A stretch of 47,902 nucleotides of DNA from a virus, in the IMG/VR virus record IMGVR_UViG_3300019881_000001, positions 1 to 47,902 of that record, one strand, 5' to 3'. The position numbers and the translations under genes are program-made. The stretch's first letter is position 1. Every line of letters starts with the position of its first letter. Shown here piece by piece: positions 29,821 through 47,902 of the stretch. The notes under the pieces were generated by a model, which saw only the letters and a list, made by a program, of their open reading frames with translations, did not search any database and was not told the origin of the DNA.

Positions 29821-29887
29821 CCCGCTCGTCAGCGGGAAGTTGCATACCGAAGGCCCGGCTACTCAGGTGGGGTAGCCGGGCCTTCGG
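29821..29887. terminator. Strong tandem terminator between early operon and RHH operon
   Basis: CCCGCT-CGTC-AGCGGG (29821-29836) is followed by a 16-bp perfect stem: 29847-29862 with 29872-29887 (CCGAAGGCCCGGCTAC and its complement, 9-base loop). It lies between two converging units, the leftward early operon and the rightward RHH pair, and should act in both directions. The interval from here to 30143 shows no further gene. Confidence 0.85.
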
Positions 29888-30143
29888 GTGATCAGGTCCC
29901 GTTGGGGCACCGAGGTGCTCGCGGGACAGCTCCTGCTGAGCGATGGATCGCCACCCTGCCGACGGTATGTACGTTCTCGTTGCGATCGTCACGGATCGGC
30001 TGCGGGAGTCAGACCAGGAGGCTCACCAATCCCGGAGGATGGTGGGCAGCATTCGCGGGGTGTAGATATAGCTCCGCACCCACTGAACCCTGACAGTACA
30101 TAGCGTGGGTACCCATAGACAAGCGACACGCTCAGTGCTACGG

Positions 30144-30992: not shown

Positions 30993-31150
30993 TCGTCACC
31001 CCATCCATTCGCGTGGTGGCGGCAGACCAACTCGACAGCGATGACCGCTTCGCCGTCGATCAGTTCACCCTCGCCGAAGACGCCCATCGGTCGCTCTCGT
31101 TCGGCTAGCCGGCCACAGCCGTCAGCGCAGTACACGGGATCAAGGGTCAC
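30989..31150 (-). CDS. Small Cys/His protein (53 aa)
   Basis: GTG 31150 overlaps the upstream TGA. The product has C8, C12 and LVCRHH near its end, with an acidic middle. It is likely a small zinc-binding protein. Both ends are translationally coupled. Confidence 0.6.
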   Translation of the reverse strand: MTLDPVYCADGCGRLAERERPMGVFGEGELIDGEAVIAVELVCRHHANGWGDE

Positions 31151-31368
31151 GGTGTGTCACCCGCGTGCTCTCCGATGAACCCGATCATTTCGGCCCATTC
31201 CTCGCGGCTGAGCGACACCAACACCTCATCGCCTGACCCGTCACCGAATGGCCGTACGAGCTCTACCGGGGCATCCGGGTCTTCGGTCTTGGTGGTCGCG
31301 ATGACGTGGATGTAACGACCGCCGCTCTTGTACTCGCGCCAGAAGGCGATGCTTCGTGAGGTGGTCAT
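31147..31368 (-). CDS. Hypothetical protein, paralogue A (73 aa)
   Basis: ATG 31368 has GGAGAG upstream. It is clearly paralogous to the product of 32428-32682: both contain SRSIAFWR, VIATTKTEDP, GDGSGDEVLVSL and IGFIGEH. The fold seems to be a small beta sheet followed by a helix. Unknown function. Confidence 0.7.
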   Translation of the reverse strand: MTTSRSIAFWREYKSGGRYIHVIATTKTEDPDAPVELVRPFGDGSGDEVLVSLSREEWAEMIGFIGEHAGDTP

Positions 31369-31736: not shown

Positions 31737-31918
31737 GAGGCCTCCTCCTCGACATGGCGTATCGCCAGTTCGGCGAGCACGTTCAAGGCGACCAGATCCT
31801 CATCCGCGACGAGGCTCATGGGCATGCGGGCAATGGCGTTGTAGAGGTCCCGAACGATGGCCTTGCGCGCCCGGATCCTGGCCTCGCCTGTCAGCGGTGC
31901 CATCAGCAGCGCGGTCAT
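31733..31918 (-). CDS. Hypothetical helical protein (61 aa)
   Basis: All-helical by composition (RIRARKAIVRDLYNAIARMP, then DEDLVALNVLAELAIRHVEE). Coupled by ATGA on both sides. Function unknown. Confidence 0.6.
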   Translation of the reverse strand: MTALLMAPLTGEARIRARKAIVRDLYNAIARMPMSLVADEDLVALNVLAELAIRHVEEEAS

Positions 31919-32190
31919 TCGGGGTCCCTGCTTCCGATCTCACGGGCGAGTAGTGCGGCATCGCGAAAGGCCGACGAGCGAGCAAGGACTACGAGCCGAG
32001 ATGGTTCGCCGACTGATGCGTCATCCGTCGGGAGCGAGTCCAGCAGCTCCTGCTCAGCCTGGAGCGCCAGCGCGATTTCCTCCGCTACGGCCTTGCGGAT
32101 GGCTCGTGCCTCTCGGGTCTCATGCCGCGCCTTCAGGCCATGCTCGCGGCGCTCCTGCTGGGCCTCGCGGAAGGCGTCTCGGTCACTCAC
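31915..32190 (-). CDS. Hypothetical helical protein (91 aa)
   Basis: GTG 32190 overlaps the upstream TGA and is chosen over a longer frame with no coupling. Two charged helices (REAQQERREHGLKARHETRE and IRKAVAEEIALALQAEQELL) are followed by a Ser/Asp linker. Function unknown. Confidence 0.6.
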   Translation of the reverse strand: MSDRDAFREAQQERREHGLKARHETREARAIRKAVAEEIALALQAEQELLDSLPTDDASVGEPSRLVVLARSSAFRDAALLAREIGSRDPE

Positions 32191-32435
32191 GGCTTGGCCG
32201 CCTTCCGAGCGCACTTGGTGCACGGCGGCATGTCGGTGATGCGGGTGCGATGGCCGCGCGGCTTCGTGGACCACTTCGCTGCCCACTCGTCCATCTCGGC
32301 TTGGTCGAACGCTTCCGCGTTGCAGAGCGTTTGCGCCACTTGGCGACCGAAGCGCTTCCCTGCGCCGAGGTTGATCGAGAGGTGCTGCAGGCGGTAGCTC
32401 CACGTCGTGCACGCTTCAGGCTTCTCGTCAGCCAT
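32187..32435 (-). CDS. Hypothetical protein with Cys pair (82 aa)
   Basis: ATG 32435 sits inside the end of paralogue B. The product has a helical body with W residues and a final CTKC, possibly half a zinc site with C9 and C46. Unknown. Confidence 0.6.
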   Translation of the reverse strand: MADEKPEACTTWSYRLQHLSINLGAGKRFGRQVAQTLCNAEAFDQAEMDEWAAKWSTKPRGHRTRITDMPPCTKCARKAAKP

Positions 32436-32682
32436 TGGTTGTCTCCTTGAGGTGTTCACCGATGAAACCGATCAATTCGCTCCATTCCTCAGGGGTCAGC
32501 GAGACCAGCACCTCGTCTCCCGATCCGTCGCCGTACGGCCTGATGAGTTCGATCGGCGCTTCAGGGTCTTCGGTCTTGGTGGTTGCGATGACGTACGGGC
32601 GGCGCCTGTCGTAGCTCCGCCAGAACGCGATGCTGCGGCTAGCTGTTGCTGGGTCTCCCACTCGCACGACGCGATCGCTCAC
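32428..32682 (-). CDS. Hypothetical protein, paralogue B (84 aa)
   Basis: GTG 32682 overlaps the upstream TGA. About two thirds of the aligned residues match paralogue A (31147-31368), with extra residues at the N-terminus. The pair arose by duplication about 1.2 kb apart, with four genes between them. Confidence 0.7.
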   Translation of the reverse strand: MSDRVVRVGDPATASRSIAFWRSYDRRRPYVIATTKTEDPEAPIELIRPYGDGSGDEVLVSLTPEEWSELIGFIGEHLKETTNG

Positions 32683-32879
32683 TTGGTTGTCTCCTGTTCG
32701 GTGTAGGGGGTGGCTGTAACGCCCACCGAATTCAGTTCTTCGACGAGCCCCGATGCGATCGCACTCACGTCCTCGACAGCCATGTAGTCGCGCCATGGGT
32801 GCAGGGCCTCAATCAGGTAGTCGTAGACCTCGCCGCCGATAGCCTCGGCGAGATCCTCCAGGCGCTTCCGCTCGCTCAT
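32679..32879 (-). CDS. Hypothetical protein (66 aa)
   Basis: Helical (RLEDLAEAIGGEVYDYLIEA) and acidic. Its end (ATPYTEQETTK) is encoded by the start-associated motif CCTACACCGA plus AGGAG, which forms the ribosome site for the next gene. Confidence 0.65.
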   Translation of the reverse strand: MSERKRLEDLAEAIGGEVYDYLIEALHPWRDYMAVEDVSAIASGLVEELNSVGVTATPYTEQETTK

Positions 32880-33232
32880 TCGGTCTCCTCGGTGTAGGGG
32901 CCTGCGAGATGCGTGAACACCCGGCTGTTGGGGTTGATGGTTCCGCGCCTATTGGCGAGCGCCCTGCCCCACATTGCGGCGTTCTCAGCCTTGGCCTGCC
33001 AGTCGTCCAAGCCGCAGTGTTCGGCTACCCGCTCAGCCGCCTCAGGGTCGATGCGCCGAAGCGTTTCGAGCGCAACGACGGTGCAGTAGGCGTAGACGTT
33101 CGTTAGTGCCTGGAGCGCGTCGTACCGGGCCTGCTGGGAGTGCTTCTCGTCCGGCTTGAAATTGACGTACCGCGTGGCCTCTGCAAGAAGCTCTGCAGCT
33201 GTTCGCAGAGTGCTTTCGATTTCCTCGCTCAT
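32876..33232 (-). CDS. Hypothetical helical protein (118 aa)
   Basis: Mostly helical, with a tetratricopeptide-like feel (ARYDALQALTNVYAYCTVVA). The C-terminus LAGPYTEETE is nearly the same as that of the neighbouring methyltransferase (LAGPYTDPEDAQ), because both are encoded by the repeated start-associated motif. Function unknown. Confidence 0.65.
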   Translation of the reverse strand: MSEEIESTLRTAAELLAEATRYVNFKPDEKHSQQARYDALQALTNVYAYCTVVALETLRRIDPEAAERVAEHCGLDDWQAKAENAAMWGRALANRRGTINPNSRVFTHLAGPYTEETE

Positions 33233-34377
33233 TGCGCGTCCTCAGGGTCGGTGTAGGGGCCTGCGAGGGTGGGTGCGAAGTCAAGCGCTGCTTGCTGGAG
33301 ACGGGTGCGCAGCGACAGGTCGAGGTAGTCGGCATTGAGGTCGATGCCGACGTACTTGCGGCCGTGGCGCTGGGCAACCATGCCTGTGGTTCCGGAGCCG
33401 CTGAACGGGTCGAGAACGGTCCCGCCCGGCTTGCAGCCCGCGAGGACACACCGCTCGGCCAACTCGGCCGTCATCACCGCGAAGTGCGCCTCAGTGAACG
33501 GTTGAGTTGCGATCGTCCACACGTCCCCCGGGTTTCGGCCCCGGATACCAGAGTCCGTCTGCGCCGATGAAGCCGCACCCGTCGCAGAACGGGCGTCCTC
33601 CGCAGTCCTCGGCATGCCATTGGTCCATGTCTCGTCACTCCTTCTTCCGTAGGTGTTGGGCATTCCGCCAGCAGTCCGATAGGAGCTGCCGATCTTGCCT
33701 TCGCCGCTCAGCTTCCCGCCGAACACGCGCGTGCCGTCGGCCGCTTCTGGGTGGGCGAGGGGCTCGCGGATGGGGTCCAGATCGAACCAGTAGCGGCTGG
33801 ACTTGCTGAACATAAAGACGTGCTCGTAGACGTTGTTGAGCCGGTCGGTGACACTGCTCGGCATCGGGTTCGTCTTCTTCCACACGATCGCGTTGCGCAG
33901 GATCCAGCCGTCATCTTGGAGCGCGAAGGCGACTCGCCAGGGGATGCCGAGCAGGTTCTTCTCTGGCACGCCCGCATCGATGCGACGAGCCTTACCGCTA
34001 CTTTGTCGTTGAACTGAGCGAGCGATTCCTTCTGGACTGATGGCGTGACCACCGCTTGCCGCGCCGAGGGTGGACTTAGCGACGCCACCCAGAGTCCCCT
34101 TGGTTGGGGTGGAGTAGGAGTCGCCGAGGTTCAGCCATAGCGTTCCGTCGTCGGCGAGCACACGGCGTACCTCGGTGAACAGGGTCCGCATTGTCTCGAC
34201 GTACTCGGCGGGTGACGCCTCAAGCCCGTACTGGCCTTCCTCGCCGTAGTCCCGAAGGCCGAAGTAGGGCGGAGATGTGACGCAGCTGTTCACCGAGCCG
34301 TCCGGCAGGGTGCGCAGGACGTCGAGCGCATCGCCGTGATGCAGCGTCAACCCGTCGTCGGCATAGTAGGGGGCCAT
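33229..34377 (-). CDS. DNA methyltransferase, beta class (SPPY)
   Basis: The 382-aa enzyme has motif IV TSPPY at 34-38 and, much later, motif I DPFSGSGTTG at 323-332 followed by G-I-D-L, the order of beta-class N4-cytosine or N6-adenine methyltransferases. SPPY is more often N4-cytosine. The central 150 residues include a specificity region. No restriction enzyme partner lies nearby, so it is an orphan enzyme, probably protecting phage DNA. It lies two genes from the helicase and three from the Mom-like gene. Confidence 0.88.
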   Translation of the reverse strand: MAPYYADDGLTLHHGDALDVLRTLPDGSVNSCVTSPPYFGLRDYGEEGQYGLEASPAEYVETMRTLFTEVRRVLADDGTLWLNLGDSYSTPTKGTLGGVAKSTLGAASGGHAISPEGIARSVQRQSSGKARRIDAGVPEKNLLGIPWRVAFALQDDGWILRNAIVWKKTNPMPSSVTDRLNNVYEHVFMFSKSSRYWFDLDPIREPLAHPEAADGTRVFGGKLSGEGKIGSSYRTAGGMPNTYGRRSDETWTNGMPRTAEDARSATGAASSAQTDSGIRGRNPGDVWTIATQPFTEAHFAVMTAELAERCVLAGCKPGGTVLDPFSGSGTTGMVAQRHGRKYVGIDLNADYLDLSLRTRLQQAALDFAPTLAGPYTDPEDAQ

Positions 34378-34427
34378 TAAGCGTCCTCAGGGTCGGTGTA
34401 GAGGACTGCGTAGTCAGCGGCGGTCAC
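34377..34427 (-). CDS. Tiny coupling ORF (16 aa)
   Basis: GTG 34427 overlaps the stop of the zinc protein gene, and TAA 34377-34379 overlaps the methyltransferase ATG. The peptide ends YTDPEDA, the same end as the methyltransferase, from the start-associated motif. It probably serves to pass ribosomes to the methyltransferase start. Confidence 0.4.
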   Translation of the reverse strand: MTAADYAVLYTDPEDA

Positions 34428-34618
34428 CACGTCACGTCGCAGTCCTGGCAGCCAGTCAGTAAGCCGCCGCCTAGCCGAATCGATGTGGTGTTGATGTGCC
34501 CGCACTTCCCTTGGTGTTCGTTGCACTCACAGCACCTACCGGCACGTCCTCGGTGGCTGTGCCAGATCACCGGATGGCGGCACCCATCGCAGTACTCGAT
34601 GCCTTCTTCGTCGGTCAC
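34424..34618 (-). CDS. Zinc-ribbon protein (64 aa)
   Basis: Cys/His-rich: CDGCRHP at 10-16, CCECN, KCGH and CQDC. Two zinc sites are likely. It overlaps the helicase stop by four bases. Likely DNA- or protein-binding; family not assigned. Confidence 0.65.
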   Translation of the reverse strand: MTDEEGIEYCDGCRHPVIWHSHRGRAGRCCECNEHQGKCGHINTTSIRLGGGLLTGCQDCDVTW

Positions 34619-35826
34619 GCGAACTCCCTCTGTGTGCGTTGCCAGTCCTCATCGCTTGCCTTCGGGTCGATCGCCGTCCACGGCCACAACCCGCCCCGCT
34701 TGATCCGCTGCGGCCAGTTGCGTTCGTCGCGGTCGCCGCGCCACGCGACCATGTCGACGTCGCCGACCTCGTTCCACCGCAGGCCGTAGCCGAACTCGGG
34801 CCAGCCCATGAGCGCCGCCGAGCCTCTAGGGCGCATGTTGCGTTCGTCGCCCTTCGTGGTGGCGTGGCCGGCGTGAGCCTCCAGCACCAACGTGATCCCG
34901 CGCGCCCGGATCGAGTCCAAGGCGCTGATCACCGGAGCGACATGGTCGTCGGTCTGCAAGGCCCTGGGGGCGAGCTTGTACAGCGGCCCGATCACCAGCA
35001 GGTCCGGTTGGGTCGCGTCCAGGACCCGGTTGATCCACGACAGGTCCTTGTCCTTCACGATGTCGATCCCGGCCGGGCGGCAGTCGATGGACACACCGTC
35101 AGACGGGTCCTTGCCCTGCGTCTTGGCCTGCAGCCACATCGCGTGGAGTTGACGCTTCACATGTCGCTCGGTGTTCTCGAGGTCGATGATGTGGGCCCGG
35201 ATCGGCTTCATCGGCTCACGGGAGAACGGATGGATCCCCGCGGCCCCCATGAGTGCCAGCTGCCGCAGGAAGACGCTCTTGCCCAGGCCTTCCTCGCCGG
35301 TGATCACCAGACGGTCCATGCGTTCCAGCAGCTGCGGGATCACCCAGTCGTACGGCTCCTCGGGTTTGCTCATCAGCTCACCGAGGGTCTGGGTCTCGAT
35401 ATCCGGCGCACCCAGGTCACGGATCTTGGTGAGCGCGTTGACGGTCTCCGATACCAGCGACTGCGGGTCGGTCTCGAGGTCCTCGGCGCGTTGCCGCATC
35501 CGGATCGCCTGGTTGATCACCTCACGCCGCCGAGCGAACCCATGGACTGTGGATGCGTACTGCTCCACCGAGTCCGGGATCGCCGGGTTGGTGGCGATGG
35601 TCAGATGCACGCTCATCAGGTGCTTGTTGCCGTTCAGAGCGAGTTGTACCGCCATCGCGTCGGTGGCCTTGCCGTCGGCCTTCAAGCCCCGCAGAACGCT
35701 CCACAGCTTTTGGTGAGCGAGGTTCGCGAAATCGGCGGCCGTCAGGATCCCAGCTGCACGCTCCAACGCCAGAGGGGACTGGTAGCAGCAGGACAGGACG
35801 ATCTGCTCGGCGAGGTCGTCGTTCAT
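34615..35826 (-). CDS. DnaB-type replicative helicase
   Basis: The 403-aa product has a DnaB N-terminal domain (about 1-130: EQIVLSCCYQSPLALERAAG, F-x-N-L-A-H-Q-K-L) and a RecA-like ATPase with Walker A GEEGLGKS (177-184), Walker B after LLVIGPLYKL and a H-x-G-H sensor region. The ATPase is closer to the RepA/AAA_25 type than to classical DnaB. ATG 35826 overlaps the Mom-like stop and has GGGGAAG before it. Confidence 0.85.
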   Translation of the reverse strand: MNDDLAEQIVLSCCYQSPLALERAAGILTAADFANLAHQKLWSVLRGLKADGKATDAMAVQLALNGNKHLMSVHLTIATNPAIPDSVEQYASTVHGFARRREVINQAIRMRQRAEDLETDPQSLVSETVNALTKIRDLGAPDIETQTLGELMSKPEEPYDWVIPQLLERMDRLVITGEEGLGKSVFLRQLALMGAAGIHPFSREPMKPIRAHIIDLENTERHVKRQLHAMWLQAKTQGKDPSDGVSIDCRPAGIDIVKDKDLSWINRVLDATQPDLLVIGPLYKLAPRALQTDDHVAPVISALDSIRARGITLVLEAHAGHATTKGDERNMRPRGSAALMGWPEFGYGLRWNEVGDVDMVAWRGDRDERNWPQRIKRGGLWPWTAIDPKASDEDWQRTQREFA

Positions 35827-36476
35827 GAGACTTCCCCAAGGGGTGGCATGTTCAGGCTGCGGCGAGCCCACTTCAGTTCGACCTCTGTAGCCCGTTGCCG
35901 CCAGTACCGGACCGCAGCTGCGTCATCGATGGCCAGCGCTAGGCGCTGGGAAGGATCAGGTTTCACGCAGAAGACCCACCGGTCCTTTACCTCTTGCCGA
36001 CCGGTGCCCCAGTCACCGCTACCGGTCGGCGGTGGTCGAAGCCGATGCCATGTTGGCGCCCACCGCCAATTGCAGGCTCGGTACAGGGCGCCGGTGTGCC
36101 CATGGGCCGGGTCGCTGTAGGACACCAGTGTCGTCGCCTCCGGGAGGTGCTCGCGAATCAGTCGAAGGCTCCATCGGTGCATGCGGCTTCCGGCGTTCTC
36201 GCCCGCCCCAGCGGTGAGGCACCATCGGGAGAGCTCCAGCCACGAACCGTCATTCGGAAGGCGTCGAGATGTCGGACTGCGCCACATCATCGCGGCGACC
36301 AACTCACCAGCGCGCGAACCGATGACCGTCAGGCGAGCACCGGAGCGCAACGGACCGAGGTAGTGGTGCCTAGCGAGTAGGTAGTTGGCCTCCCAAGGTT
36401 GGCCTAGCCTCCACATCACGCCATCGGCATCGAGAAATCCATAGAGGTCCAGTAGTAGTCCGAGATCGCCGCTCAC
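35823..36476 (-). CDS. mom: Mom-like DNA modification protein (GNAT fold)
   Basis: GTG 36476 overlaps the replication initiator stop; a longer frame is not supported. The 217-aa product has features of the Mu Mom family: an N-terminal H-Y-L-G segment, ELSRW (81-85), a helix with S-R-x-x-x-x-x-S-L-R, then LVSYSDPAHGHTGALYRACN (117-136), matching the Mom core V-S-Y-(A/S)-D-x-x-x-G-H-x-G-x-(I/L)-Y-x-A-x-N-W. Mu Mom converts adenine to N6-carbamoylmethyladenine and blocks many restriction enzymes. Same activity here is inference. Other GNAT transferases are the main alternative. Confidence 0.72.
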   Translation of the reverse strand: MSGDLGLLLDLYGFLDADGVMWRLGQPWEANYLLARHHYLGPLRSGARLTVIGSRAGELVAAMMWRSPTSRRLPNDGSWLELSRWCLTAGAGENAGSRMHRWSLRLIREHLPEATTLVSYSDPAHGHTGALYRACNWRWAPTWHRLRPPPTGSGDWGTGRQEVKDRWVFCVKPDPSQRLALAIDDAAAVRYWRQRATEVELKWARRSLNMPPLGEVS

Positions 36477-37243
36477 TGGAACCTCGCCCGCACGTCGTCC
36501 TTGGCGTACCCGTTCCGCGACGCAGGGGAAGCCGCGTCGGGGGAATCGTCCTGGGCCTTCAGCAACCAGTTGCGCCACGTGGCGCGCCAGTCCGTCTTGA
36601 CGCCCTTCGCGCCGGCCAGAGCAGTCCAGTAGTTGACGAAGCGTTCGGTCTGACGCATCACCCACTGCGGCTGCATGCTGCGTTCGACGGCCCATTCCTT
36701 CATTGCCTCATCGACGGTGAAGGGGTCCGGGATGCGTGTGCCCTTGGTCGTTGCCCGCGGGATTTTGGCAGCCCCGCGAGGGGCAAGAGTGCTTACGTTA
36801 GTAAGTACTTCTTTCTCTGTCTCTGTCTCTGGTACAGGTTTGCTACCCGTTTGCTTGAGCTCTTGCTTAGCACTTGCTTTAGCACTTGCTAGGTTTTTGC
36901 TACGCGCCTTGCCACCCAGCGACCCAGCCTCGCGGCGGCTTTCTCGCAGGTCAGAGACCTCTTGAGCGCTCCGCTGGTGGTCCAGGTAGTCGTGGAAGGA
37001 CGCGTCTCCTGTGTCGGAATCCAGGTAGACGAGACCTTCACGGACGAGCTCGTCCCGAGAGCGCTTGTTACCTTTCCGTGACCACACTTTTTCGGGGATT
37101 CGCCCATCGGTGAGGTACCGGGAGCAGTAGCACCAGCCGGTGACGAGCAGGCGGAATGCGGCGTCAGAGAGCGCGTCGATCTTCGGGTGGTCGGGCATGC
37201 CATCATGCACCCGGATATAGGTCCGCGTGTCCTTCTCCGCCAT
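36473..37243 (-). CDS. Replication initiator-like HTH protein
   Basis: The 256-aa product starts behind a perfect AAGGAGGTGA. Residues 5-95 form a winged-helix domain as in phage replisome organisers (YIRVHDGMPDHPKIDALSDA, then LVREGLVYLDSDTGDASFHD). A Lys/Ser/Ala/Thr/Glu-rich linker precedes a helical C-terminal domain (VNYWTALAGAKGVKTDWRAT). Place before the helicase supports initiator or helicase-loader function. Confidence 0.75.
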   Translation of the reverse strand: MAEKDTRTYIRVHDGMPDHPKIDALSDAAFRLLVTGWCYCSRYLTDGRIPEKVWSRKGNKRSRDELVREGLVYLDSDTGDASFHDYLDHQRSAQEVSDLRESRREAGSLGGKARSKNLASAKASAKQELKQTGSKPVPETETEKEVLTNVSTLAPRGAAKIPRATTKGTRIPDPFTVDEAMKEWAVERSMQPQWVMRQTERFVNYWTALAGAKGVKTDWRATWRNWLLKAQDDSPDAASPASRNGYAKDDVRARFQ

Positions 37244-37409
37244 CGGTCACCTCCTTCTTGGTGGGGAACTGCAGGACTGTCGCGTCCCTCGGGACAGCGG
37301 TGACACCCCGGCGCAGCAGGTAGGCACGCTTCGCCCGCTGCAGCTTCCGCGCCTGTTCGTACATGCGCCGGCCGGGGTTGGCCATGGGTGAGGAAGGGTC
37401 AACGTTCAT
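37203..37409 (-). CDS. Small basic protein (68 aa)
   Basis: ATG 37409 lies inside the previous gene's end. A basic helix (RRMYEQARKLQRAKRAYLLR) follows a Pro/Ser start. It overlaps the initiator gene by 41 bases in another frame, which is longer than usual here. DNA or RNA binding is possible. Confidence 0.55.
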   Translation of the reverse strand: MNVDPSSPMANPGRRMYEQARKLQRAKRAYLLRRGVTAVPRDATVLQFPTKKEVTDGGEGHADLYPGA

Positions 37410-37551
37410 GCACATCACCCGGATAGTCCTGCTCGTCATGGCAGTCGCAAAAGCAAGTCTCGGTGTCGAAGTCGTCCTCGGTGTAGCCGCTGCAGTGGAT
37501 GTGGTCGCCGACGTCGCAGTACGACTGGTCTCGGGTTGGCTCTCGCGTCAT
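37399..37551 (-). CDS. Acidic Cys/His protein (50 aa)
   Basis: ATG 37551 overlaps the HNH stop. The product is strongly acidic with CDVGDHIHC and CFCDCHDE, a likely metal site. Function unknown. Confidence 0.6.
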   Translation of the reverse strand: MTREPTRDQSYCDVGDHIHCSGYTEDDFDTETCFCDCHDEQDYPGDVHER

Positions 37552-37919
37552 GCGCTCGCCTTCCCTGTGTAGGGGTGACGAGCGCCAGCCGCGTCGAGGG
37601 TGTGCCAGCCGTCGTGCATGTCCACCGGGATCTCGGCGGGGTCGAGTGAGCGGGACACGATCCAGCCGTGGTTCCGCGCCCACTGCGGATTCCCGTGCGC
37701 CTTCCCGTGGCAGAGATCCTTGTTGCCGCGTCCGCACAGGGTGACGAGGTTGGCGGGTGACTCGAGCAGCGCCGAACCACCCATACCCTTCGGGGTGCGG
37801 TGGTGTACTGCGCCGTTGCCGTCGGTGATGTAGAAGCCGCACATGCAGCACCTGCCTTGGTCGCGTTCGTGGACGACGCTTCTAGAGGCATCCACAACTG
37901 CGCGGCTAGCTTTCGGCAT
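37548..37919 (-). CDS. HNH endonuclease
   Basis: The 123-aa product has a zinc pair (CCMCG), the HNH His region AVHHRTPKGMGG, the N residue in ESPANLVTLCG and a second Cys/His set (CGRGNKDLCHGKAHG). Many actinophages keep such an enzyme in the replication region; it may nick DNA for recombination. Its end (HPYTGKASA) is encoded by a variant of the start-associated motif. Confidence 0.82.
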   Translation of the reverse strand: MPKASRAVVDASRSVVHERDQGRCCMCGFYITDGNGAVHHRTPKGMGGSALLESPANLVTLCGRGNKDLCHGKAHGNPQWARNHGWIVSRSLDPAEIPVDMHDGWHTLDAAGARHPYTGKASA

Positions 37920-38220
37920 GCGCCACCTCCGGGGAGAAGTGAGGCGCAATCCGCTTCACTGAGTCATCGATGCCACCGAAGTGGACGAGCGCGATCCCGA
38001 CGCACTTACCGCACCAGCGGTAGGGCAGACCAAGGACTGGCGGGCTGTCGAACCAGATGGCGGGCGCCTTCCATCCGTCCCATGCCTGCGTTCCGCACAG
38101 GCCCACAGGGGACGCTGAGCGGGCGTACGAGGCGAGATGGAAGCCGGGTAGGTAGAGGTGCAGCACGGTGCCTTTGAAGGCTCTGTAGATTCCTGGCTGG
38201 GCGCGTACGGGGCCTGCCAT
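37906..38220 (-). CDS. Hypothetical protein (104 aa)
   Basis: Mixed alpha/beta with a Cys pair (WCGKC) and an aromatic middle (AWDGWKAPAIWFDSPP). Start abuts the upstream stop. No family recognised. Confidence 0.6.
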   Translation of the reverse strand: MAGPVRAQPGIYRAFKGTVLHLYLPGFHLASYARSASPVGLCGTQAWDGWKAPAIWFDSPPVLGLPYRWCGKCVGIALVHFGGIDDSVKRIAPHFSPEVAHAES

Positions 38221-38606
38221 TAGACCCCCTCGTGCTGGTTGGTACCGGACAGCGCGTACGCGGTCGAAACAGAGCGCAGAAGGGCCATGACCACCATCGA
38301 CGTGTCCCGAACCGTCTGCAGGTGATCGCGTGCACCCTCACGCCGTGCTACGGCGATGTCGTAGGCCCTCTGCTGGTCGGCGCACTGGTCGTCTACCCAC
38401 ACCTCCCGGTCGGCTACGGTGTGGCCCCCACGGGTGGGTTTGGGGCAGTCGGCGGACAGGAACGCGCGGCGCTTGGCGGCCTCGTAGTCGTGCTTCCGGT
38501 CCACCTCGGCGTCACGTGCGTTGCGCAGTTCTGTCTGTGCCTGTGACATCTGGGTAACGAGGTTGCGCAGCTTCCGCTCGCACTCGATGGGGGTGAGGTC
38601 TTCCAT
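38220..38606 (-). CDS. Coiled-coil protein (128 aa)
   Basis: ATG 38606 shares bases with the upstream TAA. Two long helices flank a Pro/Gly loop (CPKPTRGGHTVADREVWVDD), a pattern seen in proteins near Erf-type recombination genes. It may be a recombination accessory protein. Confidence 0.6.
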   Translation of the reverse strand: MEDLTPIECERKLRNLVTQMSQAQTELRNARDAEVDRKHDYEAAKRRAFLSADCPKPTRGGHTVADREVWVDDQCADQQRAYDIAVARREGARDHLQTVRDTSMVVMALLRSVSTAYALSGTNQHEGV

Positions 38607-38764
38607 TAGTTCTCCGCCTCGGCATCGTCGGTAGTCCCTGCGGAGACCGAGACCTGCAGCCCCTCGAGCGCCAGCCCAGCAGCGCAGCGAGCGAGAGCCT
38701 CGAAGGTGCGGGTCACCTGCTCGGCGCTGTCTGAACTGACCGTCAGTGAGATATAGACGCTCAT
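38606..38764 (-). CDS. Hypothetical protein (52 aa)
   Basis: ATG 38764 overlaps the previous stop. The first strand MSVYISLTVSS, a helix (AEQVTRTFEALARCAAGLAL) and a second strand (LQVSVSAG) suggest a tiny ferredoxin-like fold. Function unknown. Confidence 0.55.
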   Translation of the reverse strand: MSVYISLTVSSDSAEQVTRTFEALARCAAGLALEGLQVSVSAGTTDDAEAEN

Positions 38765-38958
38765 GACTCCCCCAGGAGAACGGACATGGCGTGCGTGGAG
38801 ACTTGTCCAGTTGGCCATTGCACGGTCGCAACAGGCTTGCTTGTGGGCGAACTAAGAGGTGTCACCCATGTGACCTCGCCCGTTCCGAGCTCGGGGTACA
38901 GACGATGGCGGACCCTGTCTGTCTTGCTGAACCTGCCAAGCAGCGCGTACTTGCTCAT
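38761..38958 (-). CDS. Hypothetical beta-rich protein (65 aa)
   Basis: Short strands with G and P turns (GEVTWVTPLSS, PVATVQWPTGQ) suggest a small barrel. Overlaps the SLOG gene stop by four bases. Function unknown. Confidence 0.55.
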   Translation of the reverse strand: MSKYALLGRFSKTDRVRHRLYPELGTGEVTWVTPLSSPTSKPVATVQWPTGQVSTHAMSVLLGES

Positions 38959-39473
38959 CCGAGATCACCCGGCTCACAGTCGTCGGACAGCACGCGCTCG
39001 TACGGTCGCTCCAGCCGGTCCAGTTCGGACTGGAGGTTGTCTGCAGCTACCCCCTCGACCGGTGGCGGCGTGCAACTGATCACCCGAATGCCGGGTGGCT
39101 GTGCCCCCTCGCTGGTTTCGAGGAACCGCCGCACTGGGATGCCAGCCTTCTCAGCGAGGTCAGCGGTGTGCGTGGCACCCTTGCTGCCGTTGCGGATGAA
39201 GGCCAAGCAGAGGTCCGCTCCGAGTGCCACCATCTCCGCATTGCGGCGGTACCCCGCACTGCCCTTGTGCCTCTTCCAGTCGGCCGGGTGGCGCTCGTTG
39301 ATGAACGCGTTCTGCTGAGCCCAGAGATCCGCTACGGCATCCACACCTGTCGGACAGGCTCCGTGCACCACGGTCAGGTGGTTGTTGGGTTCGATCAGCT
39401 TCGCCAGTTCGTTGCGCACCAGATGGATGTCGAGCCAGTCTCGGGAACCGGTGACGAGCACGCGCCTAGCCAT
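38955..39473 (-). CDS. SLOG/DUF2493 family protein (YspA-like)
   Basis: The 172-aa product starts RRVLVTGSRDW and has VVHGACPTGVDAVADLWA, ERHPADWKRH, the AG-x-x-RN-A-E-M motif (SAGYRRNAEMVALGADLCLA) and THTADLAEKAGIPV. This is the DUF2493 branch of the SLOG fold, a Rossmann-like group that binds nucleotide-derived ligands. The last 45 residues are an added linker. Phage copies may sense or handle NAD- or ADP-ribose-type signals; this is inference. Confidence 0.82.
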   Translation of the reverse strand: MARRVLVTGSRDWLDIHLVRNELAKLIEPNNHLTVVHGACPTGVDAVADLWAQQNAFINERHPADWKRHKGSAGYRRNAEMVALGADLCLAFIRNGSKGATHTADLAEKAGIPVRRFLETSEGAQPPGIRVISCTPPPVEGVAADNLQSELDRLERPYERVLSDDCEPGDLG

Positions 39474-39738
39474 GGCGGTTCACCTCTGCCTCCATCTCGC
39501 CGTGCACAACCCGCGCCATGACCTCACGCAGAGCCTGCGTGGCTCGGTGCTGCTCCCTGCCGGGGACGTACCCGGAAGCGATAGAAGCGGCAGCGACGTA
39601 CAGGATCCGGAAGCAGTCCTGGTAGCGGGTCGGGTCGTCCCAGGGGCGGCTGTTGACGGCTTGCAGGATCAGGTCGGCTTCGTCTTCCTGAAGGGGTTCG
39701 GCGCGCTGGGCGAACGGATCTACCAACTCGGTACTCAT
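39466..39738 (-). CDS. Hypothetical protein (90 aa)
   Basis: ATG 39738 has GGGGAGAG upstream; the longer frame crosses a hairpin and is rejected. Helical, with a central aromatic part (SRPWDDPTRYQDCFRILYVA). It overlaps the SLOG gene by 8 bases. Unknown. Confidence 0.6.
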   Translation of the reverse strand: MSTELVDPFAQRAEPLQEDEADLILQAVNSRPWDDPTRYQDCFRILYVAAASIASGYVPGREQHRATQALREVMARVVHGEMEAEVNRHG

Positions 39739-39750
39739 GAACTCTCCCCT

Positions 39751-39771
39751 TTTCCCTGGTTCCGGGAAAAA
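39751..39771. promoter_or_regulatory. Hairpin or operator after the XRE gene
   Basis: TTTTCCC (39751-39757) and GGGAAAA (39765-39771) are perfect inverted repeats with a 7-base spacer, directly between the HTH gene and the next ribosome site. A T-run on the minus strand makes it terminator-like; it could also be the HTH protein's own site. Confidence 0.5.
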
Positions 39772-39790
39772 GCCTGGTCCAGCCCGGCAC

Positions 39791-40135
39791 TCATGAAGCC
39801 GCCGCCTTTGCTGTCTGTGCAATGCCAGCCAGGAGCCCACGCAGGTGCGCATTCTCTGCTGCTAGCAGGGTGTTCTGCACACGCTGATCATCGGGAGACA
39901 AACTGACGAGCATCTCGTCCATCAGGAAATCTGCAGGGAGCGCACCGAGGACGTCCGCCAGTACGACGAGGTCATCGACCGTCGTAGGACGCGCACCTCT
40001 CTCCAGTTTGGCGATGGTCGTCTGGTGGGCATGGAACCCGCGCGCAGAGCAGGCCACCGCTAGTTGGTGTTGACTCAGCCCCATGTCTTTGCGGCGCGCC
40101 TTCACCTGCGCACCCACGACCTCGCTGGCCTTCAT
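39791..40135 (-). CDS. XRE-family HTH regulator
   Basis: The 114-aa product has a Cro/C1-type HTH at about 8-66 (RRKDMGLSQHQLAVACSARG, then TTIAKLERGARPTTVDDLVV), a P-A-D-F turn and a C-terminal helix that may dimerise. It lies in the early operon after Erf and may tune early or recombination gene expression. Confidence 0.8.
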   Translation of the reverse strand: MKASEVVGAQVKARRKDMGLSQHQLAVACSARGFHAHQTTIAKLERGARPTTVDDLVVLADVLGALPADFLMDEMLVSLSPDDQRVQNTLLAAENAHLRGLLAGIAQTAKAAAS

Positions 40136-40770
40136 GCTCCCGCCTCACTCTTCAGGTGGTCGGCGTACTGGTAGAGCCGGTCAGCGGTGGCATCCATCAG
40201 CACCTCACCGTCCGACCAATGGCTGAACGACTTCTCCACAGCGGCAGCGGCGAATGAACCGTTGTTGGCTTCCCATGCGGTCTTCACGGCCACGCGCGCC
40301 ACCGTCACGGGGTCGACCTCGGCAGGCTCCTCCATGGGAGCCCGCTCGTAGGTCTGTGCGTCCGGTTCCGGCTCGTCCGTGGGCAGCATCAACGCCTGCA
40401 GCAACGCGGTCCGTAGAGCCACGCTCATGGCCTTCGGGGTGGCCTTGTCGCCACTGTCGAAAGCCTCGCCGGCAGCTGCGGCGGAAGCGGATGAGCCATC
40501 TTCGGCGGACGTGAAGGTGTACTCCACGATCACCCGTGCATGTCCCATCGGCTTGGACTGGCTGCCCTTGCCGACGTCGATGGTCGAGTAGTCGTACTGC
40601 AGCACCTTCGGCTGCACCGTCACCTTGTGCTCAACCAGTGCCGGGTAGACCGCGTTCACCACCGCGTCGACGCCACGGAACATGAAGTTCTGGAAGTCGT
40701 TGCGGTCGTTCTTCTTGACCGCGCCAACGTCTCTCATGACGTTGTTGAGTGCGGTGTGGATCTGGGTCAC
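40132..40770 (-). CDS. erf: Erf-family ssDNA annealing protein
   Basis: The 212-aa product has the Erf core: an N-terminal helix (ALNNVMRDVGAVKKNDRNDF), F-M-F-R-G-V-D, then VVEYTF-type strands and the helix ATPKAMSVALRTALLQALML-P. Erf proteins anneal single strands for recombination, genome circularisation and repair. The C-terminal 60 residues are an acidic linker and a helical tail, perhaps SSB- or DNA-binding. Overlaps XRE gene by ATGA. Confidence 0.85.
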   Translation of the reverse strand: MTQIHTALNNVMRDVGAVKKNDRNDFQNFMFRGVDAVVNAVYPALVEHKVTVQPKVLQYDYSTIDVGKGSQSKPMGHARVIVEYTFTSAEDGSSASAAAAGEAFDSGDKATPKAMSVALRTALLQALMLPTDEPEPDAQTYERAPMEEPAEVDPVTVARVAVKTAWEANNGSFAAAAVEKSFSHWSDGEVLMDATADRLYQYADHLKSEAGA

Positions 40771-41129
40771 GAGACCTCTCCTAGATATTCGATGTCGATC
40801 GGCCTGAGACCCTTGAGGCGTGCCTGACGCCGCTGCCGTTTCAACTCCAGCGCCCGCTGCTTCTGCTCAGGCGTCAACGGCTTCCGCATCTCGTTCTTGC
40901 AGGTCCGGCACTGACGGCCATCCCGCGTGGTGATCGTGGACTCTTCGGTGTACAGGTGGTTCCGTATGCAGGCGGTCTTCTCGCGGTTGTGGCCGCTGTC
41001 CCGATGCGGGTCGTGGATAGCCGTGTGCACCCAGATGCCGTGGCGGTTCTTCTCCCACTCGATCACCGGTTCATTGGCGGCTATCTGGGCGTCGTACTCG
41101 GCGCGGTAGGAGGTGGGGAAGTCCTTCAT
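40767..41129 (-). CDS. HNH-like zinc protein (120 aa)
   Basis: ATG 41129 overlaps the WhiB stop. The middle (CIRNHLYTEESTITTRDGRQ, then CRTC) is the C-x3-H...RDG-x-x-C-x2-C pattern found in small actinophage HNH-type or zinc DNA-binding proteins. The C-terminal part is a long basic helix (KQRALELKRQRRQARLKGLR). It probably binds DNA. Confidence 0.62.
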   Translation of the reverse strand: MKDFPTSYRAEYDAQIAANEPVIEWEKNRHGIWVHTAIHDPHRDSGHNREKTACIRNHLYTEESTITTRDGRQCRTCKNEMRKPLTPEQKQRALELKRQRRQARLKGLRPIDIEYLGEVS

Positions 41130-41380
41130 GCCGCCTCCTGTGTGGCCAGCCACTCGGCTTCGTATCTCCTGCGCTGACTGGGTTTCAAGCCGCCGAAGAT
41201 CCCGAACCGGTGCTTGGTGGGGCGGCCGAGCTCCAGGCGCATCGCGAAGTCCAAACAACGCAGGCGCACCGGACAGATGCGACAGACATCGATCCCGACC
41301 GACCAGGTGTCACCCTTCTCGGGGTAGAACGGCGCGGGTCCAACAGACCGGCAGTCCGCGTAGTCGGTCCAGTCCTTCAT
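41126..41380 (-). CDS. WhiB-family iron-sulfur regulator
   Basis: The 84-aa product has the four Fe-S cysteines C10, C33, C36, C42 (C-x22-C-x2-C-x5-C) and the turn GIFGGL (60-65) before a basic tail, all typical of WhiB/Wbl proteins, which occur only in actinobacteria and their phages. Phage copies such as that of TM4 bind the primary sigma factor, down-regulate host whiB2 and can cause superinfection exclusion. It lies in the early operon, fitting host takeover. Confidence 0.88.
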   Translation of the reverse strand: MKDWTDYADCRSVGPAPFYPEKGDTWSVGIDVCRICPVRLRCLDFAMRLELGRPTKHRFGIFGGLKPSQRRRYEAEWLATQEAA

Positions 41381-41784
41381 CACTCCACCTCCGAGAATTT
41401 GAACGTGATGTAGCAGGCGATTCCGGGGGTCCTGAGACGGTGCACCGAGGGACGGATGCTGCCGATCTGCAGGTGCTTGTCGGAGTCCGAAGGCAGCAGG
41501 TTGTAAGACACTGACTGCGGCTTCGAGTCCCCGATGATGCCGTCGAAACACGCTTTGAAGGTCGGCTCAAGATTCAAAACATCGCGTTCGCGGTTGTCCG
41601 GCCAGGTGACCTCGATGTCACACCTGGCGGCAGGCATCTTCTGCAGGCGGTGGCCGCGGCACCACAGGTAGGCGAGTTCCCGGATCGCCTTCGTGCGCCT
41701 GTACTTGGCCTGCCAGCCGAGCCTGTGATTGCTGGTGAGGAGGAGGTCACGCGAGATCGCTACATGGATGGTGGCTGTCTTCAC
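41380..41784 (-). CDS. RusA-like Holliday junction resolvase, putative
   Basis: The 134-aa product has an N-terminal strand/basic helix and W-P-D-N-R-E-R-D-V-L-N-L-E-P-T-F-K-A-C-F-D-G-I as a run matching the RusA pattern D-x-D-N-(L)-x-K-x-x-x-D-x-L/I, though the first Asp pair is shifted (RERDVLN). Placement beside Erf supports recombination. GTG start overlaps the preceding small frame. Confidence 0.5.
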   Translation of the reverse strand: MKTATIHVAISRDLLLTSNHRLGWQAKYRRTKAIRELAYLWCRGHRLQKMPAARCDIEVTWPDNRERDVLNLEPTFKACFDGIIGDSKPQSVSYNLLPSDSDKHLQIGSIRPSVHRLRTPGIACYITFKFSEVE

Positions 41785-41879
41785 GGCTTCACTCCTCGAA
41801 GGTCGTTTGGTGTAGAGGCCTGCTCCCCAGCAGCAGGCGGGCGGTGGATGGTTGTCAGAGGCTCACCACTCCCAGCCAC
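41781..41879 (-). CDS. Possible small ORF (32 aa)
   Basis: GTG 41879 opens a frame that ends as TGA overlapping the GTG of the RusA-like gene, the coupling seen throughout this operon. The peptide is Pro/Ala-rich and its end is encoded by a variant of the start-associated motif followed by GAGGAG. It may exist only to place ribosomes. Confidence 0.35.
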   Translation of the reverse strand: MAGSGEPLTTIHRPPAAGEQASTPNDLRGVKP

Positions 41880-46412: not shown

Positions 46413-47864
46413 CTATACCGGTTTCCGGCGCTCCACCTTTACGCGTGATGGATCGAAGCCCGGCCCACGCGTCTCCACCGGTAACACCGTGATCTTGAAC
46501 AAGGCGCTCACGGTCGCAGACCGCACGTCGATGGGTTCCGCATCCCATTGCTCCCGGGTGATGCCGGCCATCCGTGCAAGCATCCGCTTCTCGGTGCCCG
46601 TGGCCAACTGGGCGCGCAGCTGCTCGATCTTCCGGTCGAAGCTCACCATCGACTTCACCAGCCATGCCGGGTCCACATCCGGGTGTTCGGCGAGCTCATC
46701 CAACGTCACTCTGACACCATCCCTGCGGCGCTCGAGACTGACGATCTCCGCGCCCATACCTGGCCGCTCGGACTCGGCGTAGATGGCGTCGATGAACGCA
46801 GGCTCGTTCAGTCTCCGCAGGGTGCGGCCGATGACGTACTCGTCCAGGAGCCGGATGTTGCGGGACACCCGGTTCGGGCAGTCCCGGTTGTTGCAGTAGT
46901 ACTGCCGTGCCTTCGCCGACCGGCCAACGATTGGCTTGGTCCACAGTGGGCCAGCGCACGAACTACACTTCGCATCCCCGCTCAGCAGATGCACGCGCTC
47001 CCGGCCATGGGAGGGGAACAGTTCCGTCTTCCGCTTCAGCAGAGCCTTCAGATCCTCCCAATCCTCGCGGGGGATGATCGGCTCCCACCCGGCGTCGAGC
47101 AACTGCACCGGGGAGTCCCTGGTCTCCTTGTACGCGATGAGTCCGGCGATCCTCGGGGTCAGCATCCACTGCCGGAACCCTGACGGGGTCCACTTGTTCC
47201 CGTTCGTGGTGGTGGACACCGTGTTCAGCCAGGCGATCACGCCGCCCTGCGATTGGCCGGCCAGGAATCTGGTGATGGCCTCGCGTCCAGCAGATGCCTC
47301 CTCCTCGACGATCTGCGACAGATCGAACAGCGGCTTGCCTGTCACCCCGGTCTCACCCGTGGGGATGCCGTAGCCGAACGGACGGTTGCCACCACCGGTC
47401 GGCCTGCCTGCCTTGGCGCGGGCTTCGTTGGCTCGCTTGACGCGACGCGAGGTGTCGGCGGACGCCTTGCATGCCTGTGCGACTTCGATGCGCAGGATGA
47501 ACCGGTCGTCCTCACTGTTCAGGTCCCTCGTGCCTTGCGGTGACGCCATCGGGAAGTGCTTGTCGTCGGCGAGCTTAAGCAGCAGTTCGAGATCCCAGGG
47601 CTGCCGGATGAGCCGGTCGCCGTGGTACACAAGGATCCCGTCCAGCTTGCCGGTCTCGATGTCGGTCAGCATCCTGTCCCATGCGGGGCGTTTGCGGTCC
47701 CGCTTCCACGCGGAGCGGGAGTTGTCCGGGTAGACCTCGCGGATCCTCCAGCCCAGACGCTCAGCTAGCGCGCGGCAATCAGCCTCTTGCCGTTCGACCT
47801 TCTCGAGCGAGCCGTCCGGGGCGTAGCTGAGGCGGCAGTAGATGCCTGCGCTTTGAGGATCCAT
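46413..47864 (-). CDS. int: Large serine integrase
   Basis: The 483-aa product (from ATG 47864) has a serine-recombinase catalytic domain: GIYCRLS with nucleophile S13, ERQEADC, and H-G-D-R-L-I-R. A recombinase domain (about 170-270, RPFGYGIPTG) follows, then a zinc ribbon (CSSC...YYCNNRDCPN) and a coiled coil (SLERRRDGVRVTLDELAEHP and on), the layout of phage integrases such as those of phiC31 and Bxb1. A TTG extension of 11 codons would begin 33 bases upstream, but TATACT six bases before ATG favours the leaderless ATG. It directs attP x attB integration. Confidence 0.95.
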   Translation of the reverse strand: MDPQSAGIYCRLSYAPDGSLEKVERQEADCRALAERLGWRIREVYPDNSRSAWKRDRKRPAWDRMLTDIETGKLDGILVYHGDRLIRQPWDLELLLKLADDKHFPMASPQGTRDLNSEDDRFILRIEVAQACKASADTSRRVKRANEARAKAGRPTGGGNRPFGYGIPTGETGVTGKPLFDLSQIVEEEASAGREAITRFLAGQSQGGVIAWLNTVSTTTNGNKWTPSGFRQWMLTPRIAGLIAYKETRDSPVQLLDAGWEPIIPREDWEDLKALLKRKTELFPSHGRERVHLLSGDAKCSSCAGPLWTKPIVGRSAKARQYYCNNRDCPNRVSRNIRLLDEYVIGRTLRRLNEPAFIDAIYAESERPGMGAEIVSLERRRDGVRVTLDELAEHPDVDPAWLVKSMVSFDRKIEQLRAQLATGTEKRMLARMAGITREQWDAEPIDVRSATVSALFKITVLPVETRGPGFDPSRVKVERRKPV

Positions 47865-47902
47865 GGGTTGAGTATACGTGACCGCTTGACAAGCCAACCG
47901 CG
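47776..47902. repeat. Terminal direct repeat, right copy (circle overlap)
   Basis: Exact copy of bases 1-127. It ends four bases past the centre of the candidate attP, so the attachment site is complete only at the left end. Confidence 0.93.

Follow-up and report, generated by a model that had tools for sequence, protein, structure and literature searches.

The early operon of the virus record IMGVR_UViG_3300019881_000001 of IMG/VR, which was analysed over its whole length of 47,902 bp (here called the window), carries a short sequence that is repeated at the boundaries between overlapping genes. We consider it probable, at roughly 0.7, that these repeats, which are conserved at gene boundaries, act as short homologous joints, through which genes are gained, lost and replaced in a variable block of the operon. 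As far as can be read from sequence comparison, the block shows a history of recombination: the joints are conserved, the genes between them are unrelated, the arms of the joints are reassorted and the protein tails that they encode follow the junction. The window has a G+C content of 64.6% and encodes, among others, a serine integrase, a WhiB-like protein, an Erf annealing protein and a RusA-like resolvase; between 30 and 46 kb its genes lie mostly on the minus strand in overlapping order. Gene calls were made with a simple custom script, and individual starts may be wrong. An exact 127-bp direct repeat is present at the two termini (1-127 and 47776-47902), and the record is therefore probably a complete genome, either circular or circularly permuted. 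A distant helicase homologue (45%) in an Actinomycetes metagenome-assembled genome, together with the WhiB gene, points to the Actinobacteria as the host group.

On the minus strand, which is the coding strand here, the 16-mer CAGGCCCCTACACCGA is present exactly at 32889-32904 and 33248-33263, with 2 mismatches at 34393-34408 and with 3 mismatches at 32698-32713. Including a further match at 41807-41822, the window holds five sites with at most three mismatches, against a mean of 0.69 in shuffled sequences, none of 100 of which reached five; the repetition that had been noticed in a sequence-only reading of this DNA is thus real. Three of the operon copies lie within a chain of overlapping genes (32.6-33.3 kb), the fourth adjoins the start of a methylase gene (34.39 kb), and each is followed by a Shine-Dalgarno-like GGAG/GAGGA and by a start codon 9-15 nt past the core. 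With all four copies no more than 45 nt upstream of a start, the motif is not equally frequent away from gene starts. The 20 identical bases said to be common to two copies are found in those at 32889 and 33248 (CTCGCAGGCCCCTACACCGA), and the copies at 33248 and 34393 share 21 (CTACACCGACCCTGAGGACGC). The earlier proposal that the motif, followed by a ribosome site, ends at least four genes stands as regards the ribosome site, but the copy at 34393 terminates only a small open reading frame (ORF), which lies after the helicase gene and before that of the methylase and was not reported by the gene caller; it has 49 codons, or 16 when read from a nearer GTG (a tiny ORF at 34377-34427). Two outlying variants had to be given up. 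That at 37565 forms the natural C terminus of a family of HNH endonucleases, in which homologues have endings such as PYLGE, PYIGE and PYTGE, and that at 41808 has no conserved counterpart before any of the RusA-like homologues.

Scanning IMG/VR with the motif and its variants revealed true copies in nine further records, namely G001 to G007, G011 and the short contig L141. This gives 22 copies in 10 records, each just 5' of a start codon; several of these records are fragments. The copies are related, so that such counts are not independent trials. Every record has 1-4 copies at one locus, and the core ends 9-18 nt before the start. Matches in L014, L015 (G012) and L143, and motif matches in L008, L010 and L011, were taken as chance, the context being different or the open frame continuing through the core; the least certain of these is G012, where the copy also precedes a start. 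A search of 50,697 phage records with the 44-bp and 40-bp joint sequences gave no convincing match in named phages.

Each joint was described by a shared core, CCCCTACACCGA, and by the arms on either side of it. The right arm exists in three versions, RA (CCCTGAGGACGC), RB (GGAGACCGAATGAGC) and RC (ACAGGAGACAACCAA), whose order A, B, C is kept along the operon. The left arms fall into the classes LA (GCCGCTGACTACGCAGGC), LM (the methylase end) and LC (GCCACC), plus a few private ones. In the window, the motif-bearing junctions and the genes between them are as follows.

Junction A, 34355..34426, minus strand: core at 34393-34403 (GCCGCTGACTACGCAGTCCTCTACACCGACCCTGAGGACGCTTAATGG); before the methylase start, which lies 15 nt past the core; arms LA and RA.
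N6/N4 DNA methylase gene, 33229..34377, minus strand: Pfam PF01555, E=3e-49; cassette between junctions A and A'.
Junction A', 33236..33265, minus strand: exact 16-mer at 33248-33263; 3' end of the methylase gene; arms LM-RA.
118-aa protein of unknown function, 32876..33232, minus strand: cassette between A' and B.
Junction B, 32872..32915, minus strand: exact 16-mer at 32889-32904; right arm RB.
66-aa protein of unknown function, 32679..32879, minus strand: cassette between B and C, with a mostly unrelated gene at this place in each relative.
Junction C, 32672..32714, minus strand: 16-mer at 32698-32713 (GCCACCCCCTACACCGAACAGGAGACAACCAAGTGAGC); arms LC-RC.

Junction A is an isolated patch of similarity to G002 (89%) and G003, and 30 bp of junction A', whose tail LAGPYTDPEDAQ overlaps the start of the 118-aa gene, match junction A of the same two records at 97-100%. 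Junction B combines the tail LAGPYTEETE with a GAGGAG ribosome site and an ATGA overlap with the 66-aa gene; over 33-44 bp it is 93-100% identical to G001, G002, G003, G004, G006, G007 and G011. Junction C, with the tail ATPYTEQETTK and a GTGA overlap with an 84-aa gene, matches G001, G002, G003, G004, G005, G006 and G011 at 97-100% over 32-43 bp, and G007 at 87%. Taken together, the junction patches shared with relatives are 29-44 bp long, mostly 93-100% identical, isolated and placed exactly at the gene boundaries of the window operon, compared with a mean identity of 73.9% in alignments longer than 200 bp. The genes between the joints are unrelated in nearly all pairs of genomes. For the 118-aa, 66-aa and 84-aa genes of the window, the last of which follows junction C, no homologue was found in the relatives, which carry other genes at those places, and the 118-aa protein likewise has none in Pfam or PHROGs. 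Short near-identity at a gene boundary with unrelated flanks, the pattern that defines a conserved boundary or recombination joint, is therefore what is found here.

This pattern extends beyond the motif. When all genome pairs are taken together, a gene start lies in 60 of the 135 short isolated patches, where 7.4 would be expected and at most 16 were obtained in 300 random placements, and a start is likewise present in 30 of the 82 patches that lack the motif. Conservation of boundaries is thus general in this group of phages, among whose conserved boundaries the motif forms the largest families. Two further boundaries of this kind lie next to the junctions above.

Junction D, 32412..32447, minus strand: further boundary (AGGAGACAACCAATGGCTGA) with a sequence like the right arm of C; isolated patches of 23-36 bp at 94-100% to G001, G002 and G006.
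Junction E, 31912..31947, minus strand: a different conserved boundary sequence of the CCCGTGAGATCGGAAGCAGGGACCCCGCATGA type (REIGSRDPx stop/start); 33-40 bp at 92-97% to G001, G002 and G003.

Another conserved boundary, of the GTACGCCAAGGACGACGTACGGGCGAGGTTCCAGTGA type, is seen at 36473-36518, at the 3' end of a 256-aa replication-initiation-like gene; it is 98% identical to G011 and 95% to G004, and different genes then follow.

Among the arms that meet at the core, six pairings were seen, LA-RA (3 copies), LA-RB (5 with a true LA arm), LA-RC (in L141), LM-RA (1), LM-RB (2) and LC-RC. All four combinations of LA or LM with RA or RB are present, the LM-RA joint of the window being the fourth, which implies that past crossovers must have taken place in or adjoining the core. 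These combinations point to recombination at gene boundaries, an explanation that the sequence-only reading did not contain. Recombinant joints, with the left side of one copy and the right side of another, are indeed found in relatives that lack the intervening gene: LA-RB in five records (G001, G004, G006, G007 and G011) and LA-RC in L141. The methylase is found at the same place in G002 and G003, and gene order places none there in the LA-RB hybrid phages, whose joint is the expected product of a putative deletion between the joints flanking the methylase. In G002 and G003, which have LM-RB alone, the methylase runs straight into junction B, whereas the window has the extra 118-aa gene between its LM-RA joint and the joint ending in RB. 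In G010, whose helicase is 68% identical, LA has diverged and the right side next to it is unrelated. Both copies in G007 carry the variant CCATACACCGA, which is otherwise seen only in L141, and this shared variant suggests that joints may become homogenised within a genome.

The protein tails follow the same logic. Gene 82 of G003 and gene 66 of G005 encode proteins that are 87% identical, yet their tails, AGPYTDPEDA and ATPYTEQETTK, are each that of their own junction. Gene 9 of G004 has a tail, while its homologue in G010 (gene 60, 82%), a phage without the motif, stops before it. In G002, G006, G007 and the window, the first joint terminates only an ORF of ~15-50 codons after the previous gene. 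Because homologues differ in their tails and the first joint ends only a tiny ORF in four genomes, the tail is best read as a by-product of the junction and not of the protein, and the earlier suggestion that selection acts on DNA or RNA is borne out by these homologues. In G006 and G007, ORFs of 14 to 16 codons overlap both neighbours, as though the body of a gene had been lost and its end kept. The frame of the core is identical in all 22 copies, encoding P-Y-T or close variants over ~11 unrelated gene bodies; of the 21 copies measured, 16 have a 4-nt overlap of the stop with the following start. Since frame and overlap are held in common, the shared frame would reflect the need to end in frame at the overlapping stop, i.e., coupled translation.

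We propose that gene exchange might take place at these joints as follows. A joint, ~30-45 bp long, runs from the last codons of the upstream gene, which contain the core CCCCTACACCGA, through the stop codon of that gene and a Shine-Dalgarno sequence to the overlapping start of the gene that follows. The common core would allow two joints to pair by homology, either in the genomes of co-infecting phages or prophages or within a single genome, and the intervening gene would then be exchanged, added or deleted. As the right-hand part holds the stop, ribosome site and start, an incoming gene would still end in frame and pass ribosomes on to its neighbour, the overlap serving as a translational coupling. 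Pairing would be carried out by phage annealing proteins, Erf in the window and Rad52-like or Sak4-like proteins in relatives, and two genes of the window may take part.

Erf-family single-strand annealing protein, 40132..40770, minus strand: Pfam ERF PF04404, E=2e-19; PHROG 155, E=5e-33; candidate agent of exchange.
RusA-like Holliday junction resolvase, 41380..41784, minus strand: PHROG 34, E=1e-10; candidate partner.

Erf is found in the window, G002, G006 and G009, a Sak4-like protein in G003, and a protein matching recombinase or DNA repair families in G011; a search of these phages for RecT found none. Red-beta requires ~30 bp of homology, and for the Rad52-like recombinases of phages, Erf among them, homology that is short or diverged is enough (PMC3945230); joints of 29-44 bp fit these requirements. 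Such relaxed recombination has been proposed as a source of mosaics (PMC3945230); it was shown in E. coli phages, and for the joints described here we infer it. The identity of the joints themselves would be due to selection on a translation signal, to repeated exchange, or to both.

Several points weigh against this proposal. The exchanges are read from the sequences of metagenomic or prophage contigs only. The 22 copies were sorted into arm classes by eye, and automatic labels fit weakly for two of them, the window copy at 32889 and the second copy of G007. G005, G007 and G011 gave no match to the ERF or RecT families, several records being fragments. Near-identity of the joints could also stem from a translation or regulatory signal under constraint, and the reassortment of arms would then be a by-product. 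In keeping with a translational role, predicted structure is weaker in the 19 start regions with the motif than in 646 others (-11.7 vs -16.3 kcal/mol, p=2e-5, the copies not being independent), which makes a part in translation plausible.

The strongest alternative is that the repeat is a start-associated translational or regulatory element, its core bound by a host or phage factor or acting in the mRNA, and that selection is on the expression of the next gene. The folding prediction supports it, as does the position of 22 of 22 copies just before starts with a ribosome site, and repeated start-proximal motifs are known in phages of cluster K (PMC3203893) and of clusters EC, EF and EI (PMC7302621). 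It explains less well why the position-specific variants differ in ribosome site and spacer while different arms meet across the core, or why other boundaries, unrelated in sequence, are conserved likewise. Moreover, the joints have no promoter-like site and no Rfam match, and the core forms part of the preceding ORF. That the core pairs with 16S rRNA was considered and rejected, its match to the E. coli 16S near position 680 (CAGGTGTAGCGG) being equalled by shuffled 12-mers (p=0.27). We regard this explanation as unlikely, although a translational role may coexist with recombination.

The sequence-only reading had likened the repeat to the start-associated sequences of cluster K, a likeness that fails in consensus, copy number and placement alike. 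Those are copies of a 13-bp sequence, GGGATAGGAGCCC, which itself serves as the ribosome site and lies 3-7 bp from starts; it occurs 11-19 times, in the non-structural half of the genome and mostly before genes with gaps of >50 bp, and in about half of the copies the extended start-associated sequence, an imperfect 17-bp inverted repeat, lies upstream (PMC3203893). The cluster K sequences and the present repeat alike are short, asymmetric and in one orientation, 5' of starts of different gene families in the non-structural region. The core CCCCTACACCGA, however, lies upstream of the ribosome site, mostly within an ORF, among overlapping genes and at one locus; neither the 13-bp consensus at that distance nor the high copy number with wide gaps is found here. 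No inverted repeat was seen by eye upstream of the cores, for which no formal search was run. Nor is the repeat one of the Microbacterium phage motifs of clusters EC, EF and EI. These also lie at gene boundaries, with 12, 10 and 5 copies in each genome, and those of EC precede the ribosome site at 21-30 bp from the start; unlike the joints here, they occupy small intergenic regions genome-wide, and the available text does not describe reassortment of arms (PMC7302621).

A bolder form of the joint model seems doubtful to us at present. The locus would be an array of cassettes joined by a standardised connector, a counterpart of the integron that is carried by phages and needs no integrase. In it, one dedicated joint with stop, ribosome site and start, kept by selection, would plug a shared gene pool into the early operons of many phages, possibly aided by a dedicated annealing protein or a nuclease at the core.

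It is also conceivable that a phage HNH endonuclease cuts at or near the core and so drives the conversion of cassettes. HNH genes are present at 37548-37844 and 40767-41129, and the non-member start regions closest to variant B are the 3' ends of three HNH homologues (17 of 25 positions, against a mean of 8.4 over all starts); in the family of 37548-37844, 3' ends resembling variant B occur in G002, G003 and G004. However, the core is neither beside nor within an HNH gene in most phages, cleavage is putative only, and 17 of 25 is barely above the next best value of 16 and reflects mostly a shared Pro-Tyr codon pair and the ribosome site. Directed cutting thus appears very improbable, and that the joint arose from an HNH 3' end is possible but too weakly supported by the same 17 positions to be claimed.

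We give still less credence to a C-terminal peptide tag, in which the shared ends (GPYTEETE, TPYTEQETTK, GPYTDPEDA) would function as protein, for example in localisation or turnover. The single frame of the core in 22 of 22 copies would suit it, but that frame is expected anyway as the only one that meets the overlapping stop, and the tails switch among homologues, are missing from one that is 82% identical and in four genomes terminate only a tiny ORF. Chance or plain whole-gene duplication can be set aside, since five matches were found where 0.69 were expected, the motif recurs in nine other records, and the genes ending in it show no similarity to one another, the nearby paralogous pair at 31147-31368 and 32428-32682 ending without it. 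These paralogous small genes (SRSIAFWR...VIATTKTEDP...) share 76% DNA identity over 194 bp and represent a duplication inside the variable block. A terminator-like inverted repeat, AGGCCCGGCTACCCCACCTGAGTAGCCGGGCC, lies at 29838-29890 and is 98-100% conserved in G003, G006 and G011.

The closest precedent for the exchange joints proposed here is found in the mycobacteriophages Island3 and Brujita. The adjacent genes 67 and 68 of Island3 have a common 3' end of 60 bp (18 residues), and the relative that lacks one of the genes has a single recombinant copy, with the upstream part of 67 and the downstream part of 68, which was called the first such case in mycobacteriophages (PMC3029335). The logic is the same as that of LA-RA plus LM-RB versus LA-RB in the present phages. 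The Island3 and Brujita case concerns one gene pair in two close relatives, whereas here there are 1-4 joints per record in ten divergent phages, their arms combined in at least six ways and the genes between them mostly unrelated. The present case thereby extends that logic to a family of interchangeable joints across ten divergent phages. Whether mosaic phage genomes are joined illegitimately or through boundary homology has long been debated, and homology cannot be found at most mosaic borders (PMC3029335). Here, one locus in ten phages offers several recombinant joints, in which the region of crossover is narrowed to about a dozen bases and compatibility with translation is built in, and the boundary model of phage mosaicism thereby becomes directly testable.

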